Below, one piece after another: positions 1,703 to 22,947 of a stretch of DNA of 32,950 bases (the stretch's first letter is position 1; the number at the start of each line of letters is the position of its first letter). Made by a program: the position numbers and the translations under genes. The DNA comes from a virus, in the IMG/VR virus record IMGVR_UViG_3300030085_004903, positions 1 to 32,950 of that record. The stretch is one strand, 5' to 3'. A model generated the notes under the pieces. It made no database searches. It was not told the origin of the DNA and worked only from the letters and a program-made list of their open reading frames with translations.

Positions 1703-2074
1703 ATGGATCTTTATGCCTCTCCTAGACACTATCTCTTCAACCTTAAGACATCACAATCGGCAGAAGCGAGAAGACTATGGAGGCAGTCAATAAAGAATAA
1801 ATGGGAATATAAGTGTGCTTATTGCGGATCAGAACAAAAGATTACAATCGATCATGTCACTCCTCAATGTAAAGGAGGAAGTGACTTTATAACCAATGTG
1901 GTAGCCTGTTGTGAATCATGCAACAGGTCTAAAAGTCATCACAATTGGTTAGAATGGTATTCTCAGCAAGAATTTTTTGATGAGGATAGAAAAGAAGCAA
2001 TCATTAAATGGATTGGATTTGAAACAAAACAAAAACTTTTCTCATATGGGAGAAGAAAAAACACGGTTTATTGA
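1703..2074 (+). CDS. HNH endonuclease
   Basis: The 123-residue protein has a complete HNH module: C38-x2-C41 (CAYC), D50-H51 (TIDHVTP), KGGSD, N65 and C70-x2-C73-N (CESCN). These residues fit a zinc-stabilised beta-beta-alpha-metal fold that nicks or cuts DNA. Similar stand-alone HNH proteins in T4-like phages are often homing endonucleases or general nucleases (established knowledge), and no intron is seen next to it. The stop overlaps the alternative TTG start of the glutaredoxin gene, so the two are probably co-transcribed. The family call is secure; the biological target is unknown. Confidence 0.88.
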   Translation: MDLYASPRHYLFNLKTSQSAEARRLWRQSIKNKWEYKCAYCGSEQKITIDHVTPQCKGGSDFITNVVACCESCNRSKSHHNWLEWYSQQEFFDEDRKEAIIKWIGFETKQKLFSYGRRKNTVY

Positions 2075-2076
2075 AA

Positions 2077-2313
2077 ATGGCTTTTATTGTATATTCAAAG
2101 GACGGTTGTCCTTATTGCACTAAGATTAAAAGAGTGCTAGAGTTATCTGAACAACAACATGTTGTATATAAACTGGAAAGAGACTTCACCAAAGAAGAAT
2201 TTTATTCACACTTTGGTGAAGGATCTACATTTCCTCAGGTCACATTAGAAGACAAAAAACTTGGAGGTTGCATGGAAACCGTGAAATATCTAAGAGAAAA
2301 TAATGTGATCTAG
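2077..2313 (+). CDS. grx: Glutaredoxin
   Basis: The 78-residue protein has the glutaredoxin fold signature. It has the active-site CPYC at residues 11-14, a cis-proline loop TFPQV and a GG turn (LGGC), and its length is normal for a phage glutaredoxin. It should reduce disulfides using glutathione, for example supplying electrons to ribonucleotide reductase. I chose ATG 2077; the TTG at 2071 adds only two residues. It sits just after the HNH gene. A degenerate relative lacking the first active cysteine occurs at 4889-5122. Confidence 0.93.
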   Translation: MAFIVYSKDGCPYCTKIKRVLELSEQQHVVYKLERDFTKEEFYSHFGEGSTFPQVTLEDKKLGGCMETVKYLRENNVI

Positions 2314-14381: not shown

Positions 14382-15149
14382 ATGCCACAGTCCCCTAGAC
14401 CTAGAAATAAGAGGGTATTTGAGTTAAAATCAAAGATCATGAGGCCTGCAACAACTTCAAACTATGAAGTTGCAATGAGTTTAAACTCAACTGTTGGTGA
14501 ATTTTTATCAAGATATAATGCAACTCTTGATTCAGATAAGCAACAATATTTGACTCTTGCATGTAGTGAAGCATCATTGCCAGGATCCACTTTTGCAACT
14601 CATGATGTAACTGATGACTTCACTGGTGTCAGTGAAAAAATGGCATATAGAAAGCAATATGATGGCACGATAGATCTTACATTCTATGTTGATCACGGAC
14701 ATTATATGATAGAATTGTTTGATAGATGGATGAACTATATTGCTGGTGAAGGAGAAAGAGGAAGAGGTGGTGCCACTGCATCGTTGGGAGATGGATTTTT
14801 TACACAAGATAGAAACTATAATTACCGAGTTAATTTTCCAGATCAATATAAAATAGACAGTCTGTTCATATCTAAATTTGAAAAGGATCTGAGAGACGAT
14901 AAACCTCAAAGAACAGTATATCGTTTCGTCCAAGCATTTCCTATTGCATTGAATTCAATGCCTGTGAGTTATGATGCATCACAGTTACTCAAACTGACTG
15001 TATCTTTCTCGTATACCAGATATCTCAGAGCAAGAATAGGAGGGGAGTCTCAGTTCGACTTCTCTGTCTTCGGAAATAACTCTGCGGGAGAAATTGATGA
15101 ATCTCCAAACCCATTCAATAGTCCCATTACTCTTGAGAACTTATTCTAA
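14382..15149 (+). CDS. gp54: Tail-tube-fold baseplate protein, gp54-like
   Basis: The 255-residue protein has a tube-protein fold: NYEVAMSLNSTVGEFLSRYN, YDGTIDLTFYVDHGHYMIEL and RTVYRFVQAFPIALNSMPVS followed by LLKLTVSFSYTRY. gp19, gp48 and gp54 share this fold, and position next to the baseplate genes favours gp54, the tube initiator. A tail tube protein is the main alternative, as both are of related size. It is transcribed divergently from gp4. No signal peptide or membrane span is present. Confidence 0.7.
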   Translation: MPQSPRPRNKRVFELKSKIMRPATTSNYEVAMSLNSTVGEFLSRYNATLDSDKQQYLTLACSEASLPGSTFATHDVTDDFTGVSEKMAYRKQYDGTIDLTFYVDHGHYMIELFDRWMNYIAGEGERGRGGATASLGDGFFTQDRNYNYRVNFPDQYKIDSLFISKFEKDLRDDKPQRTVYRFVQAFPIALNSMPVSYDASQLLKLTVSFSYTRYLRARIGGESQFDFSVFGNNSAGEIDESPNPFNSPITLENLF

Positions 15150-15204: not shown

Positions 15205-15933
15205 ATGCCTTTACCAAAAATTAGTACTCCATATTACAATCTTGAACTTCCTTCGACTGGCCAAGAAGTAGAATACAGACCTTTTTTGGTTAAAGAAGAG
15301 AAAGTTCTTTTGCTTGCATTGGAGAGTGAAGATACAAAGCAAATTACATCCGCAATTAAAACAGTCATCAAAAACTGTGTGAAGACAAAGGGAATCAAAG
15401 TAGAATCTCTACCGACCTTTGATATTGAATATCTCTTCCTGAACATTCGTGGAAAGTCAGTTGGAGAAGAAGTTGATGTAAATATCATTTGTCCTGATGA
15501 TGGAACCACTCAAGTTCCTACGAAAATTAATATCGACGAGATTGAAGTCAAGAAATCTGATGATCACAACAATAAAATCAAGGTTGATGATCAACTGATG
15601 ATTGAGATGAAGTATCCTTCACTTGATCAATTCATTAAGAACAACTTTGATTTTGCTGGTGCATCAACAAAAGATACAATGGATCAATCATTTACTCTGA
15701 TTGCATCTTGTATTGATAAGATTTACAATCAAGAGGAAGTTTGGGAGTGTGGTGATGTGACCAAGAAAGAAATGACAGAATTTCTTGAGCAGATGAACTC
15801 AACTCAATTTAAGAGCATTGAGGAATTCTTCAATACAATGCCAAAACTTTCTCATACACTTACCGTCAAGAATCCTAACACGAAAGTTGAGAGTGAAGTT
15901 GTTCTGGAAGGACTGTCAAGTTTTTTCGCGTAG
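15205..15933 (+). CDS. gp26: Baseplate hub subunit, tail assembly chaperone-like
   Basis: The 242-residue protein matches the T4 baseplate family of gp26. It opens with PYYNLELPSTGQEVEYRPFL and KEEKVLLLALES, followed by INIRGKS-like and VNIICPDDG segments. It precedes the two giant tape-measure-like genes, the place where other tailed phages carry a tail assembly chaperone with a frameshift extension. A slippery T TTT TTC occurs two codons before its stop and opens into a 61-codon extension. Its role is probably to chaperone tape-measure or hub assembly (inference). Confidence 0.82.
   Translation: MPLPKISTPYYNLELPSTGQEVEYRPFLVKEEKVLLLALESEDTKQITSAIKTVIKNCVKTKGIKVESLPTFDIEYLFLNIRGKSVGEEVDVNIICPDDGTTQVPTKINIDEIEVKKSDDHNNKIKVDDQLMIEMKYPSLDQFIKNNFDFAGASTKDTMDQSFTLIASCIDKIYNQEEVWECGDVTKKEMTEFLEQMNSTQFKSIEEFFNTMPKLSHTLTVKNPNTKVESEVVLEGLSSFFA
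15921..15927 (+). promoter_or_regulatory. Slippery heptamer for -1 frameshift (T TTT TTC)
   Basis: In the gp26 frame the sequence reads agt-ttt-ttc-gcg-tag. T TTT TTC is a canonical X XXY YYZ slippery site. A -1 slip bypasses the stop at 15931-15933 and joins a 61-codon open frame ending at 16112. No strong downstream stem-loop is seen. Confidence 0.65.
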
Positions 15934-16112
15934 CCCTCGCTCACATCGATCTTGAAAGTTACTACAAACTGAATTTTGCTTTGATTCAGTACCATAAATA
16001 TAGTTTGACTGAGATTGAAAACTTGATACCGTGGGAAAGGGATATCTATGTCGCCTTACTTAAGGAACATCTAGAAAACGAAAAGTTAAAAGCACAACAA
16101 AATGCCACCTGA
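15927..16112 (+). CDS. -1 frame extension of gp26 (tail assembly chaperone-type domain)
   Basis: This frame has no good start codon of its own, so it is probably expressed only as a gp26 fusion of about 302 residues. It reads RVALAHIDLESYYKLNFALI, then HKYSLTEIENLIPWERDIYV and LLKEHLENEKLKAQQ. The pattern of a helix, LTEIE, a Pro-Trp and a final LL helix is typical of the short second domain of tail assembly chaperones. It overlaps the next gene by 11 nt. Without it, 15934-16101 would be a coding gap in a densely packed cluster. Confidence 0.72.
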   Translation, partial: RVALAHIDLESYYKLNFALIQYHKYSLTEIENLIPWERDIYVALLKEHLENEKLKAQQNAT

Positions 16113-19100
16113 TCTCGATGACCTAATAAACAGCATAAGGGAAGAGGCAAGCAGAGAATCTGCGTTAGCTGTTTACGAAGGAGCTCGTCAAGACGATTTG
16201 GTGGATGAGGAGATTGATGAAAGAATCCTCAATCTCCTTGGATTGGATGATACTTTTGATATTGATTATAAGACATACATGACTCTCCTCAAGGAGAGAA
16301 TGGCTGCTGCTCGAATGGCAAAGAGTCAGATTCCTACTGAGGAATCAGAAATTATTACAGAAGAATTTAGAAGAGTAAAGAGAAAGACTGGTAGATTTAA
16401 GATAAAGACGAAGAAAATTAGTGTACAAGATTTCCAGAAGAGCGTAGTTAAACCTTCTAAACTCCTGACTGGTTCTGCTTTTAAGACACCTACAGAAGAA
16501 CCTAAAGCAGAAAAAGCACCAAGAAAGAAAAAAGTAGACGATATTGTAAAGATAAGAGAAACTGTTGTTTCAATCAAGAATCTTCTTGAAAAGAGAAACG
16601 ATCAGTTGAAGGATTCTGCTGAGACGGAAAGAAGTAGAGCACAAAAAGCAAGAAGATCAAAAAGAGAAGATGAGTTAGAAGAGAAGAAACCAAATCTTGG
16701 ACTTAAAGTATTAGAAAAAGCCGTTGCTCCTGTCAAGAGTTTATTTGATAGAATTGTCAGTGGTCTTGTCGCCCTGATTGCAGGAAGATTTTTATATAAG
16801 TTCTTAGAATGGTTCTCTGATCCAGATAACAAAGAAAAAGTTGATAGTCTAATTGAATTCTTAACTGATTTTGCTCCTGCAATTTTAGGAGGTTTCTTAC
16901 TATTTGGAACAGGATTTGGTAGAATTATAAGAAAATTGATTGGTGTTGCAGTGAAGATGACTGCAAGACTTCTTAAGTTCGCAGTACCTAAACTCCTTAA
17001 GTTTGTTGCGAAAAATCCGGTAGCTGCTGCAGCTATTGGTGTCGTTGGTGGTGCTGCCATTGGTGGCATCATGCAATCCCAAACACCATCAAATGATCCA
17101 GAAAGAGCAGCAGAAGGAAAGACTCAACTAGATGATACTCAAGACTTTGGTGGAACAACAGGTGCTCCAATTAGTGGAGATATGCTCGGATTTGATAAAG
17201 GTGGAATGATTCCAAACCTTTCTCAACTGACTCCTGCAGGGATGGCACAAGGTGCTCTTTCCCTTGGATCATCAATCAAAGAAAGAGGTCTTGGTAATGT
17301 AGCAATGGATTTTGCTGGTAATGCATTAGGTGGAATTAAAAACTTTATGGATGAAAAGGGCATTAGTGATTTGCTAATGCAACATCCTCTCGCTAAATTA
17401 GGAATAATTAAGGGGGAAGAGTTACTTGGTGGATTTACAAACTTCTTAAATGAAAAAGGTATTAGTGATACCTTCATGAATCTTGGTAAAGGTCCTGCAA
17501 AGGATATTACTGGAAATAGTGGAACTGACATTAAAGGAGCTGGTGTTGATACACAATTAATTTCTGCTAATGCTGGTGATATCGTTATCAATAAAGAGGC
17601 AGCTTCTGCAGTAGGATCAAACTATTTCGATGCAATTAGTCAAAAATCTGGTGAAAAGATATCAGGTGCAGGTCCAGATACGCAAATGATTGCGGTTCGT
17701 CCTGGTGAAATTGTTATCAATAAAGAAACGGTTGATGCAGTTGGTGCTGATCACTTCCTGGGTCTGAATAAATTGTTTGGCGGTGCGGGAGCAAACAAAC
17801 CAAAAACTGCAAAGGTACAAGCAGCATCTGGTGGTGGACTTGTCCTTCCTGCATTCTCCTCAGGTGGTATGGTTGGTGGGTACGAATCTAATCATGACCA
17901 TAGTAAAGAAGGAACTAGTGCTTCCAACAGGGAGAATAAAAAGTTATTGAGACAAAGAAGTAAAGATATAAAAGAGGAGAAAAAAGAGGAAAAAGAGATA
18001 AAGAAAATTTCTTCAGGACAAGTAGTTGGTAGAGAAAATCTCCCTGCTGCCACCCAGAAGGCTTTGACAGAAATGGATGCCAAGAGATCTGGAACTTTAC
18101 CACCAGATATTAAGACTACAAAGAAAGGTGGTGTGCCCGATATGTTGGGTCTTGGTGGGTTGATTCGTGGTATTACTGGTATGGGAACCAACCAGAAAGA
18201 AGAATCTGGTGGTGGATTTGTTGGTGCTGTTAATAAGGTAATGGGTGCTATTGAAAATCCATTATCTATATTTGGAATGCTTGGCGGTGAGAAAAAAATA
18301 GTCGATGGTAACATTGGAAAACCAACAGCACAAGAACAAAAAGATCTTGATAATCTTGCTGATAAGAAAGAAAAGTTAAAGCAGAGCCAACAAAAATTAA
18401 TGGGACTCAAGAGTCCAAAAAAATCAGTTCAGGATGATCCTTTATTTGCAGAGTATCAACAGGCTTTTGATGATCCAAATCATCCTCTACATGAAAAAGT
18501 AGCTGGTGATCTTTTTACTGATAAAGATCCTATCAGATTTGAAGAATTTAAAAAGTTAAAAGAAAAAGAAGGCAAAAAGGAGAAAGTAAAGAGCACATTC
18601 CAACTTGCAGGAAGCAGTGAAGTAATTGATCTTAACAAACCGATGGGTTCTGAGATCAAAAGAGCAGACTTTCCAAATACAAGATCTGGAGCAAAGGCAT
18701 ATCAAAATGCCATGAAGAATATGAAAGCTGGTGCAAAAGCATCTATTGCATCATTACCCAAAGATTATAAGAAAACTGAGCAAGAAGCATTTGCAAAAGC
18801 AGAAGAGCATCAACAGAAAAAAGAATCAATTAATGCAAGACATGCACAGTTGATGAAGTCAACTGATCCTCAGAGAATTGCTGATTATGATGCTAAGCAT
18901 GGAGAAGGTGCTTACGCTAAGAAGTTGCTCGGTAAACTTAAAAATACATATGCAGATGCTAGTGCTGCTGAAGTGAAGAAAGTAGTTGATCCAAAATCTT
19001 CCATAATTCCATCAAAAGCAAAAACCTTTGAAGGTGGTGAAATAAAAGAAGGAAGTGGAGACAATATAAAAGGCGAAACTGCTGATAGACAATTGATCAA

Positions 19101-19425
19101 GGGAGAACCTGGTGAATATGTTTTTCCAAAAGAATCCGTTCAGAAACTTGGTGGTCCGGATCAACTAGATAAGGTGGTTGCAAACACTGATCCAAATTCT
19201 ACTCCTGCTAAAATGGGAGAGAAGAATGTGAAATTAAAACCACCCGAAGCACCACAGAAAAAACCAATGATTACTAATCTTCCACCAACTGTTCAGAGCT
19301 CTGGTGGTGGTGGTACTTCTGGTGGTATGGAAATGGCTGGAAATAATCCTCCAAGTATTCCAATGCTTTCTAATGCCACAAAGGCAAGAAATAAAATGAT
19401 CTACGGAATCAACGAGGGAGGCTGA
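16102..19425 (+). CDS. Giant tape-measure-like tail protein 1
   Basis: This 1107-residue protein directly follows the gp26 frameshift extension, the usual position of a tape-measure gene. Residues about 146-196 form a charged coiled coil. About 200-330 hold hydrophobic spans (SGLVALIAGRFLYKFLEWF, AILGGFLLFGTGFG, AAAAIGVVGGAAIGGIM) typical of tape measures that enter the inner membrane. Three related modules follow, with DTQLISANAGDIVINKEA (about 474), DTQMIAVRPGEIVINKET (about 520) and DRQLIKGEPGEYVFPKES (about 990). EKGISD occurs twice. The coil resembles the N-terminus of the next protein. gp29 equivalence is possible but unproven. Confidence 0.72.
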   Translation: MPPDLDDLINSIREEASRESALAVYEGARQDDLVDEEIDERILNLLGLDDTFDIDYKTYMTLLKERMAAARMAKSQIPTEESEIITEEFRRVKRKTGRFKIKTKKISVQDFQKSVVKPSKLLTGSAFKTPTEEPKAEKAPRKKKVDDIVKIRETVVSIKNLLEKRNDQLKDSAETERSRAQKARRSKREDELEEKKPNLGLKVLEKAVAPVKSLFDRIVSGLVALIAGRFLYKFLEWFSDPDNKEKVDSLIEFLTDFAPAILGGFLLFGTGFGRIIRKLIGVAVKMTARLLKFAVPKLLKFVAKNPVAAAAIGVVGGAAIGGIMQSQTPSNDPERAAEGKTQLDDTQDFGGTTGAPISGDMLGFDKGGMIPNLSQLTPAGMAQGALSLGSSIKERGLGNVAMDFAGNALGGIKNFMDEKGISDLLMQHPLAKLGIIKGEELLGGFTNFLNEKGISDTFMNLGKGPAKDITGNSGTDIKGAGVDTQLISANAGDIVINKEAASAVGSNYFDAISQKSGEKISGAGPDTQMIAVRPGEIVINKETVDAVGADHFLGLNKLFGGAGANKPKTAKVQAASGGGLVLPAFSSGGMVGGYESNHDHSKEGTSASNRENKKLLRQRSKDIKEEKKEEKEIKKISSGQVVGRENLPAATQKALTEMDAKRSGTLPPDIKTTKKGGVPDMLGLGGLIRGITGMGTNQKEESGGGFVGAVNKVMGAIENPLSIFGMLGGEKKIVDGNIGKPTAQEQKDLDNLADKKEKLKQSQQKLMGLKSPKKSVQDDPLFAEYQQAFDDPNHPLHEKVAGDLFTDKDPIRFEEFKKLKEKEGKKEKVKSTFQLAGSSEVIDLNKPMGSEIKRADFPNTRSGAKAYQNAMKNMKAGAKASIASLPKDYKKTEQEAFAKAEEHQQKKESINARHAQLMKSTDPQRIADYDAKHGEGAYAKKLLGKLKNTYADASAAEVKKVVDPKSSIIPSKAKTFEGGEIKEGSGDNIKGETADRQLIKGEPGEYVFPKESVQKLGGPDQLDKVVANTDPNSTPAKMGEKNVKLKPPEAPQKKPMITNLPPTVQSSGGGGTSGGMEMAGNNPPSIPMLSNATKARNKMIYGINEGG

Positions 19426-19428
19426 TAA

Positions 19429-22400
19429 ATGTTAGCACTCTTAGGAAAGGCAACCAAAACTGGAAAGGCAGTTAATATTGGAAGAAAACTTCTTGCCAAA
19501 GGTGGTGAGAAAGAGCAAAAGAAGAAAGATGATCGTAGAAGATATTCCGAACCATCATCTTCTCTTGTTCCAAGAGGATCTGCTGCACCAAAAAATACTT
19601 CAGTTCTTGCTCCAGTTCCTAAACTTGCTGAGGTCAATGAAGATACAGCAAAAGGTGATGATGACATTCTAGTAATTAAGGATACGGTAATCAGTATTCA
19701 TAAGATACTGAAGACCACATTTAAGAATGAATCAATTTTACTGAAGCAAAGAAGAAAGTCTGAAGAGAACCGAAAGAGAGCAGAGCAAGAAGAAGAATTA
19801 GAAGCGAAGAAGGAAGACGATAAGAAAGAGAAGTCTGGTGGTGGGAAGATGAATGTTCCCATGAGTATCATGGATCGAATCAAAGCATTCATTGCTGGAT
19901 TCGTTGCATATCGACTTGTTCCTTTTATTCCACAATTGTTGGAATTAGTCAAATTCATTCCTCCTGTTATTGATTTCTTTGCAAATACGGGTATATTTTT
20001 AATTGATGCATTCTCTTCATTCCTTGTTATCGCAAAGAAACCGATTGATTGGGCTAAGGGTGCAATCGAAAATATAGGCGGAGAGGAAGCACTCGAAAAA
20101 TTTGAAGGATTATTATCTGCATTTACTACATTTGCTAACATTGCCATCATTGCAGGAATGGCATCCATTGGTGGTGGAGGTGGAGATTCTTTTGGTCGTG
20201 GTGGCCGTGGTCCAAAAACTACAGGTATTGGTGGTAAAGGTGTAGGTCAAACCAGAACAACTTCTCCTGCTGCAGCAAGAAGATTTGCAAGTAGATTCGG
20301 TAGAGATGCAGCAGAAAAGAGATTCGGAAAGGATGCTGTAAAGAATCTTGGCGGAAAGTTTGGTAGATCTAGAGCAACAAATGCAATCAGAAAAGGTGCC
20401 ACAACTGTTGCCGATAAAATTGGAGGAAGAGGTGGAGTCAAAGCACTTGCATCATTAGGTAAGATTGGTAAATTTATTAAAGTTCCTGTTATCGGTGGCA
20501 TAATTAGTGCTGTTCTCGCATTAATGAGTGGAGAACCGATTGGGAAGGCATTATTTGCTGGAATTGGAACTACAATTGGTGGTGCTCTTGGAACACTCAT
20601 TCCTATTCCTGTCCTAGGGACGATTCTTGGTGGTTTTATTGGTGATTATGTTGGCAATTTATTAGGAACACTGTTCTTTGGTGGAGGTCTTAAGGAGGCT
20701 GGTGCTCAATTAGGTAAGGATATTTTAGGAATATTCACTGGAGTGGGTAAAGGTGCAAAAGCAATCTTTGACTGGGTGTTTGGTGGGGGATTATTTGATC
20801 TTATCAAAAATATTAGTGGTGGTGTATTTAAATTTGTTACCTATATTTTAAATCCTGGTGGGTTACTCTTTGACTCATTGAAGCAAGGTGGTAAAATTGC
20901 AGAAGCAATATTTAATTTTGCGAAGAGCATTGTTGGAAATGCAGTTGGAGGAGTCGTAGAAGGATCAAAAAGAGCAACTGGTGGATTTTTTGATGCTATC
21001 ACTTTTAATGTATTTGATTTTGATAAGCAAAATGAAGTAGAAAAGAAAGAAGAGGGTGGTCCAGTTGGTGATACTGAAACTAATGTCGAGAAAAAACTAG
21101 AAAGAACTACATTTAAAACCTCCACAAAGAAACCAGATAAGGTAAAGATAGGAAAAGATATTGGTGGACCAGAAAAGTTAGTAAAGGCTGGTTTTAATAA
21201 GAAGACTGTTGGTTATTTGGCAGCGGCATCTGATGAGATGAAGCGTATTCCTCTCATCGGTTCCATCATGGGATCCGCAATTGATCTTCTCTTGGGTCAA
21301 AGGCCAGAGAAGTCGATGCTACAATCATTCTCTACAAACATTGTCGCATTAAACGATTTTGCTACGGTTGATCAGGTAAATCAAGGATCTCTGACGGGTC
21401 TCTTATCTGCCAGTGCGATGCAAACTGGTGGCGAAGTTTTTGGATCTACTTACGGTCCAGGAACAATTGCTGGTGAAAGGGACTCTGCCACAGGTGCTTT
21501 ATTAGCAACTGATCCGGAACAGTATCAGGTTGTTCTTTCTCGTTATCTTGAGACTGCTGTTGATAATAAAGTTCCAAATGTGTTTAATGCAATGAATCTT
21601 GCAGAAACCATGAAGGAAAATGAACCAGGTCCATTTGACAGTATATTGGGTGGATTAAAAGATTTCTTTGGTTTTGGACCTAAAAAGGCAACAGATGGTG
21701 GAGGTGGTGATGATAAAAAGACTAGTAAGAGTTCTGGTGGTATCACCATGGGAAGTGACTTTGAATCTACTCTTGCAAGACTTTTAAAAGATTATGAGGG
21801 ACTCAGAACAGAAGCTTACAAAGATTCCAAGGGTATTCCAACTATTGGAATGGGTGCAACATATTATCCAAAAGGATTCCGTCTTTCTGGTTCTGTTCAA
21901 ATGGGACAAACAATTACCGAAGAAGAAGCGTTATACATTAAACAACAACACATCAAAGAACATAGAGATAGACTTTTAAGAGAAGTTCCAGCTTCTACAT
22001 ACGCTAAGGTTCCTGATAATGTAAAAGCAGCACTTGAATCTAAAGTTTTTAATTATGGAAGTCTTGGTGGTACTTTAGCTGATTTGGTTACAAAAGCAAC
22101 GGAAGATGGTAATTACAAACCAGTTTCTGACTATTTCAGAAATACTCTAGCAAAACATGATGGTGGTCTTAATAGTTGGAGAAGAAACGATGAAGCAGGC
22201 ATCATAGATACTGGAACAAGTAGTAGAGCAAGTCTATCTTTTCCTAAACAATCTGGTGCTGAAGCTACTAAAGTATATGAAGCAGAGGTTGCAAAGGCAT
22301 CGTCTGGGTCTGGATCTCCTGATGTTGATTCATCAGATATGTCTACTGCTGATGTAGGATCTAGAGAGCGAGGAGAAGGATCTAAACTCGCGGGAGAACT

Positions 22401-22947
22401 TGGTCGTTTCTTAGATGCTAAGGGTCTCGGTAATTATGGATCAGGAACTCATCAACATCCAGAACATCCACCTTGGCCAGCAGAGTCTGGTCACTCTGCA
22501 AATTCTTTACACTATGAGTCTCAAGGAGCAAGAGCTCTTGATATTGGAGGATGGGGTCCAAATTTATTCAAGAGAAATGGAGAAAGCGGAACTGATGATC
22601 AAACAAAAATTATTGCAGCGATCAATGAATTTAACTCAAGCAAAGGAGTAAGTCCTGTAGAGTTTTTACACGAAGGTAATGAACCATCTGGTCACTCAGA
22701 TCATGTTCATATTGCATATCAAGGTGGTGGATCTATTGGATCTAGAAAGTCAGATACTGCAAGCATCAGTGATTATGCTCCTTATGAAGATGGTGATTCT
22801 GGACCTCAAATCATTGTTAAAACTATAATTGTAGAGAAGAAAATGCCTGGTGAGTCTGTAATTATGCCACTTCCTCTCGGTGGAGGGGGTAGTTCTGATG
22901 GGGTAAATATAAATGCATATTCTAACTTATCTGCTGGTGCTGGTTAA
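19429..22947 (+). CDS. Giant tape-measure-like tail protein 2 with lysozyme and peptidase domains
   Basis: The 1172-residue protein starts 3 nt after the previous stop. It has an N-terminal coil (about 77-130), a hydrophobic region MDRIKAFIAGFVAYRLVPF (about 147), and further glycine-rich membrane-like spans (about 345-420). A GH24 T4-type lysozyme domain follows: YEGLRTEAYKDSKGIPTIG with E790, D799 and T805, the same spacing as T4 lysozyme E11, D20 and T26. A C-terminal M15-type peptidase domain has H1028 and D1038 in SLHYESQGARALD and H1092-x-H1094 in SDHVHIAY. It probably digests glycan and peptide bonds of peptidoglycan during DNA entry. Its stop overlaps the gp27-like start. Confidence 0.8.
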   Translation: MLALLGKATKTGKAVNIGRKLLAKGGEKEQKKKDDRRRYSEPSSSLVPRGSAAPKNTSVLAPVPKLAEVNEDTAKGDDDILVIKDTVISIHKILKTTFKNESILLKQRRKSEENRKRAEQEEELEAKKEDDKKEKSGGGKMNVPMSIMDRIKAFIAGFVAYRLVPFIPQLLELVKFIPPVIDFFANTGIFLIDAFSSFLVIAKKPIDWAKGAIENIGGEEALEKFEGLLSAFTTFANIAIIAGMASIGGGGGDSFGRGGRGPKTTGIGGKGVGQTRTTSPAAARRFASRFGRDAAEKRFGKDAVKNLGGKFGRSRATNAIRKGATTVADKIGGRGGVKALASLGKIGKFIKVPVIGGIISAVLALMSGEPIGKALFAGIGTTIGGALGTLIPIPVLGTILGGFIGDYVGNLLGTLFFGGGLKEAGAQLGKDILGIFTGVGKGAKAIFDWVFGGGLFDLIKNISGGVFKFVTYILNPGGLLFDSLKQGGKIAEAIFNFAKSIVGNAVGGVVEGSKRATGGFFDAITFNVFDFDKQNEVEKKEEGGPVGDTETNVEKKLERTTFKTSTKKPDKVKIGKDIGGPEKLVKAGFNKKTVGYLAAASDEMKRIPLIGSIMGSAIDLLLGQRPEKSMLQSFSTNIVALNDFATVDQVNQGSLTGLLSASAMQTGGEVFGSTYGPGTIAGERDSATGALLATDPEQYQVVLSRYLETAVDNKVPNVFNAMNLAETMKENEPGPFDSILGGLKDFFGFGPKKATDGGGGDDKKTSKSSGGITMGSDFESTLARLLKDYEGLRTEAYKDSKGIPTIGMGATYYPKGFRLSGSVQMGQTITEEEALYIKQQHIKEHRDRLLREVPASTYAKVPDNVKAALESKVFNYGSLGGTLADLVTKATEDGNYKPVSDYFRNTLAKHDGGLNSWRRNDEAGIIDTGTSSRASLSFPKQSGAEATKVYEAEVAKASSGSGSPDVDSSDMSTADVGSRERGEGSKLAGELGRFLDAKGLGNYGSGTHQHPEHPPWPAESGHSANSLHYESQGARALDIGGWGPNLFKRNGESGTDDQTKIIAAINEFNSSKGVSPVEFLHEGNEPSGHSDHVHIAYQGGGSIGSRKSDTASISDYAPYEDGDSGPQIIVKTIIVEKKMPGESVIMPLPLGGGGSSDGVNINAYSNLSAGAG

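Follow-up and report, generated by a model that had tools for sequence, protein, structure and literature searches.

In a T4-like marine cyanophage from an uncultivated record, gp26 and a 61-codon frame overlapping its end very probably encode a tail assembly chaperone pair of the lambda G/GT type, with a short form (TAC-N) and a long form (TAC-NC) produced by -1 frameshifting at T_TTT_TTC. The window, meaning the whole stretch of DNA analysed, comprises a 32,950-base record of an uncultivated virus and carries T4-like tail genes. The basis of this reading is comparative sequence and predicted structure: a slip site, a coding extension, the lack of a conserved independent start, an upstream element, homology to T4 gp26 and gp51, and a TAC-like fold. 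An earlier note on the same DNA had suggested that gp26 of T4-like cyanophages is a frameshifting tape-measure chaperone, and the conserved site, the coding extension, the neighbourhood and the fold predicted for gp26 support that suggestion.

The gene for gp26, the putative TAC-N, is located at 15205..15933 on the plus strand (242 aa; PF12322 T4_baseplate, phrog_150, AlphaFold model). Its 3' end reads TCA AGT TTT TTC GCG TAG, which is the canonical phase for T_TTT_TTC. The slippery heptamer (in-phase X_XXY_YYZ) occupies 15921..15927 (+), and the zero-frame stop TAG follows one codon past it at 15931..15933 (+). Read from 15927, the -1 frame translates as RVALAHIDLESYYKLNFALIQYHKYSLTEIENLIPWERDIYVALLKEHLENEKLKAQQNAT, with 61 codons and a TGA stop at 16110-16112. 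This extension (15927..16112, +; 61 aa plus stop) is the candidate TAC-C and is assigned to the C-terminal domain of 'gp51' by phrog_634, pN/pS and a predicted helical domain. The next ORF begins with an ATG at 16102 and overlaps the extension by 11 nt. The heptamer near the end of gp26 and the 61-codon open frame running 11 nt into the next gene had both been described in the earlier note, and both descriptions were exact. The predicted frameshift fusion product, TAC-NC, would be encoded by 15205..16112 (+) and contain 302 aa. Its length and junction were computed; the junction peptide of the long form is VESEVVLEGLSSFFR, and its short-form counterpart in the window protein is VESEVVLEGLSSFFA.

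The upstream neighbour of gp26 encodes a tail-tube-family protein (14382..15149, +; PF23849 Phage_TTP_2, E=8e-13; phrog_45 tail tube). Downstream lies a tape-measure-like gene of 1107 aa (16102..19425, +), so called from its position, two membrane-like segments and a Gly-rich composition; no homology of this gene to a named tape measure was detectable. The claim that the extension sits right before a tape-measure-like gene held as to placement, since the extension adjoins the 1107-aa gene and gp26 is next to the tail-tube-family gene; the tape-measure identity itself is one of position and composition. The two genes past gp26 (window 16102-22947) encode proteins of 1107 aa and, with a lysozyme domain, 1172 aa. 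Their positional counterparts in P-SSM2 encode 529 and 516 aa, about half the size, and show no clear sequence similarity to them.

A first set of 80 relatives was collected from IMG/VR using the gp26 of the window. TTTTTTC was found one codon before the stop in 80/80 of these, and the -1 frame was open in 80/80 (in two, the extension was cut off by the sequence end). The set was then enlarged to 272 usable loci with named distant phages and further single-protein scans, and dereplication yielded 139 loci below 85% protein identity. The alignment proposed in the earlier note found the heptamer and the extension frame kept across cyanomyoviruses and well beyond: T_TTT_TTN was present at the gp26 end in 269 of the 272 loci, and in 136 of the 139 after dereplication. 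The variants among the 269 loci were TTTTTTC (229), TTTTTTA (26), TTTTTTT (13) and TTTTTTG (1). The TTTTTTA lineage encodes Phe-Leu and not Phe-Phe, which indicates that the bases, not the residues, are conserved. All six T's were invariant across the 136 dereplicated loci. Among the 144 Phe-Phe codon pairs at other places in these genes, only 13 were TTT TTC. The T run includes two zero-frame wobbles, each with an information content of 2.0 bits; the other zero-frame wobbles in the 45 nt upstream carried 0.13-1.05 bits.

The three exceptions were K483, VAP7 and Serratia phage Kevin (L091, L092, L095). The TAC-C-like -1 frame is kept in these phages and the T-rich site differs, with CTT TTC, GTT TTT or GTT TTC replacing T_TTT_TTN; in K483 and VAP7 an ATG overlaps the gp26-like stop. 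These phages may rely on another slip site or on coupled initiation. In one IMG/VR relative (L268:1494-2391) the slip site reads ACATCTTTTTGGTTAGG, as though two bases had been lost, and gp26 and the extension are in one frame. Either frameshifting was naturally lost in this relative, or the T run was misassembled.

Selection on the extension was estimated family-wide from 1,911 pairs, which are not independent of one another, giving pN/pS values of 0.176 for the -1 frame, against 1.0 and 3.1 for the remaining frames. Judged by these sequence comparisons, purifying selection acts on the extension in its -1 frame and in neither of the others. It matched phrog_634 (baseplate hub assembly catalyst, gp51) with E=4e-27 and the C-terminus of phrog_150 with E=2e-5. 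A compact helical domain was predicted for it (pLDDT 89), and no meaningful structural match to this model was found.

The alternative that survives best, which we regard as improbable, makes the extension a small gene in its own right (the gp51 of GenBank), whose translation starts independently or by coupling and for which the heptamer is incidental. Many records do annotate gp51 separately, an ATG overlaps or lies just past the gp26 stop in some lineages, and the first ATG is at extension codon index 3 in 48 of 133 dereplicated loci. The SD-like element described below is about 25 nt from this commonest ATG, which is too distant to serve it. Against a separate gene, the annotated gp51 start differs from genome to genome, or gp51 is left unannotated, and the internal ATG, where present, varies in position between codon indices 2 and 19. 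The first 25 extension codons are free of ATG in the window and 10 other dereplicated loci (of 133), and in 4/133 they contain no ATG, GTG or TTG. Upstream of the slip site, no ATG, GTG or TTG was present in the -1 frame in 132/133. An independent start, which the earlier note had named as evidence that would count against its reading, was not found conserved among the 133 dereplicated loci. The same note had stated that the extension has no start codon of its own. In the window this was correct for ATG and GTG, which do not occur in frame, and for the region upstream of the slip site, which has no start; it did not hold for TTG, which occurs from extension codon 19 on, within the conserved domain. 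Cr30, Marzo, phi-pp2 and phiM9 have an extension-frame ATG that overlaps the gp26 stop or is close to it, and coupled initiation could add free TAC-C in such lineages.

The invariant wobble bases of the heptamer also argue against a separate gene, as does T4 gp51, in which the extension domain is fused to a gp26-like domain. T4 gp51 (249 aa) consists of PF12322 over residues 1-201 and a phrog_634 C-terminus, and T4 gp26 consists of PF12322 alone; the phrog_634 match is common to the window extension and the C-terminus of T4 gp51. By this domain make-up, T4 gp26 corresponds to the short form and T4 gp51 to the long, fused form, each made from its own gene. The gp26 end carries no slippery heptamer in seven T4-type phages (T4, which has TTC TTT, KPV15, IME341, Kimel, MP1, SW69-9 and Banach). 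Full-length gp51 was found in 6/6 of these split-gene phages that were read (KPV15, with a broken-up annotation, was left out). For phage Kimel, GenBank already lists both gp26 and gp51 as 'tape measure protein assembly chaperone'. In T4, gp51 is needed for assembly, and the finished particle does not contain it (PMC3004832).

About 10 nt before the heptamer the window contains GGAAGGA (15906..15912, +), which is complementary to the anti-SD and, from codon bias and anti-SD energy, is a probable frameshift stimulator. Most loci have GGAGGG, TGAGGG, AGAAGG or similar at -15 to -10 from the heptamer. The Glu codon at this place is GAG in 83 of 119 relatives (70%), compared with 28% elsewhere (20% before G), a bias with p of about 1e-20 to 1e-27 where shared ancestry is ignored. 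The Leu codon preceding that Glu also favours a G ending (p 1e-5, likewise ignoring shared ancestry). Anti-SD pairing in the family was -7.0 kcal/mol, compared with -5.6 expected from synonymous codons, and -6.0 for GGAAGG in the window. Bacterial -1 programmed frameshift signals often, but not always, include an SD-like element and a structure downstream.

The first 45 nt past the heptamer were more structured than synonymous shuffles (mean z of -2.1 to -2.4). Just past the heptamer 55-59% of loci had z below -2, and the signal faded to -0.2 by codon 12. Hairpins, for example GCCCTC...GAGGGC, begin about 5 nt past the heptamer in lineage-specific registers, and because the registers differ among lineages, no consensus hairpin was obtained by RNAalifold in the core set of 115 loci. 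No clear local hairpin was seen just past the heptamer of the window itself (z of +0.6 and -0.6 in the two nearest segments); its frameshift signal would then rest on the upstream element and the heptamer, or on another structure. A perfect 7-bp stem (ACTGAAT/ATTCAGT) is present at 15968-15990 of the window, about 40 nt past the heptamer. It was rejected as a family signal, having z of -3 in the window relative to synonymous shuffles and not being shared family-wide. We consider it possible, without leaning towards it, that T4-like marine phages share an undescribed three-part recoding signal: an anti-SD-binding GGAGG kept at the synonymous level 10 nt upstream, T_TTT_TTN, and a hairpin that re-evolved in differing registers or, as in the window, was lost, the slip site being retained throughout. 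Of these parts, the upstream element kept by codon choice and the hairpin with its changing register may not have been described before.

Slippage of RNA polymerase on the T run, which would give mRNAs of altered length and hence both proteins, is less probable still than a separate gene. There is a run of six T's, and of eight in the HTVC008M and Melnitz lineages, but such slippage has no need for a fixed codon phase, nor for synonymous-level elements upstream and downstream, and six T's are short for it. In Pelagibacter and Methylophilales phages (L084, L085, L181, L188) eight T's abut the gp26 stop, a run that could be long enough for a contribution from transcriptional slippage. Chance or assembly error is of negligible probability. 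In its favour one might cite another heptamer in the window that is also in phase and followed by a long -1 frame; but the gp26 site recurs in named phages and in independent assemblies by the hundred, and its conservation across relatives excludes chance. The second heptamer, A_AAA_AAC near 2056, close to the end of an HNH endonuclease gene (window 1703-2313), opens an 83-codon -1 frame and is the sole other canonical in-phase heptamer with a long -1 frame in the window. It was rejected as a frameshift site and looks accidental, because its -1 frame is the glutaredoxin (nrdC) gene with its own ATG; the two genes overlap by chance.

For the preferred reading, a frameshifting chaperone pair, the family and predicted fold of gp26 were also considered. 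The match of gp26 to PF12322 had E=2e-77 and 260 bits (cut-off 24.5), and no other PF12322 match was seen in the record, itself a fragment of 32,950 bases. AlphaFold2 modelled the window gp26 with a pLDDT of 86. The top matches of this model among solved structures were 3FGX (Z 7.8), 2OB9 (Z 7.8) and 3KLU (Z 7.2), followed by a protein of unknown function (Z 5.4) and unrelated entries (Z 2.7). All three top matches are phage tail assembly chaperones (PMC9603447). The Foldseek E of the model to known chaperones was weak (0.6), and a sequence-profile search of solved structures returned nothing credible. On its best match, with a moderate Z, gp26 is predicted to have a TAC-N fold.

The slip itself, its rate and the binding roles are what we infer, as follows. 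Most ribosomes would halt at the TAG, giving TAC-N. With GGAAGG, some 10 nt upstream, able to pair with the 3' end of 16S rRNA, a minority of ribosomes would slip back one base on T_TTT_TTC, the P-site tRNA-Phe re-pairing on TTT and the A-site tRNA-Phe on TTT, and the stop would be bypassed. The small helical TAC-C (the 'gp51' piece) would be added in this way, giving TAC-NC, of 302 aa. On the lambda analogy (PMC5009743), many copies of TAC-N would coat the tape measure protein and a few of TAC-NC would recruit tube subunits. Both forms, by the same analogy, would depart before the virion is finished.

Vladimirov, Gautam and Davidson reportedly identified the T4-like tail assembly chaperone genes (in Virology, 2022), and their abstract is said to state that frameshifting is conserved in several T4-like groups and that T4 uses genes 26 and 51. 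T4 was still given as the exception to G/GT frameshifting in 2016 (Atkins et al., PMC5009743). Passages in later papers that draw on the 2022 study describe a short gene and a fused long gene in place of frameshifting in some T4-like phages (PRFect, PMC10885494) and poly-T slippery sequences known in TAC-N genes of T4-like phages (phage Adele paper, PMC12846349). Going by such passages, a -1 frameshifting chaperone was already known in kind for T4-like phages in 2022, and the present finding is a sound rediscovery. Cyanophage gp51 was described as only about 20% of normal length, in passages that make no mention of frameshifting for it (Sullivan 2010, PMC3037559). The frameshift reading explains these stub-length 'gp51' annotations with differing starts. 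On this reading gp26 and gp51 in these records would be two halves of one recoded gene, for which a joined CDS annotation is due, and the conserved frameshift site could be measured in Synechococcus and Prochlorococcus.

Four known systems were compared with the pair proposed here. T4 gp26 and gp51 belong to the same PF12322 family and have the same C-terminal piece; T4 differs in having two separate genes with a full-length gp51, whereas the window has one gene and a predicted frameshift. HK97 gp13, B. subtilis YqbN and Rbstp2171 (2OB9, 3KLU and 3FGX) align with the N-terminal 90 or so residues of the gp26 model (Z 7.2-7.8), but gp26 has about 150 further residues and the sequence identity is 4-10%. 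The -1 signal of E. coli dnaX combines an SD-like element some 10 nt ahead of its heptamer with a hairpin beyond it, and the family resembles it in the first and, in most lineages, in the second; dnaX differs in being a host gene with an A-rich heptamer, and the window in having no clear hairpin. Lambda G/GT is alike in its short form, its -1 frameshift near the 3' end, its long form and its adjoining gene, a tape measure in lambda and tape-measure-like here, and differs in the heptamer, which in lambda is GGGAAAG.
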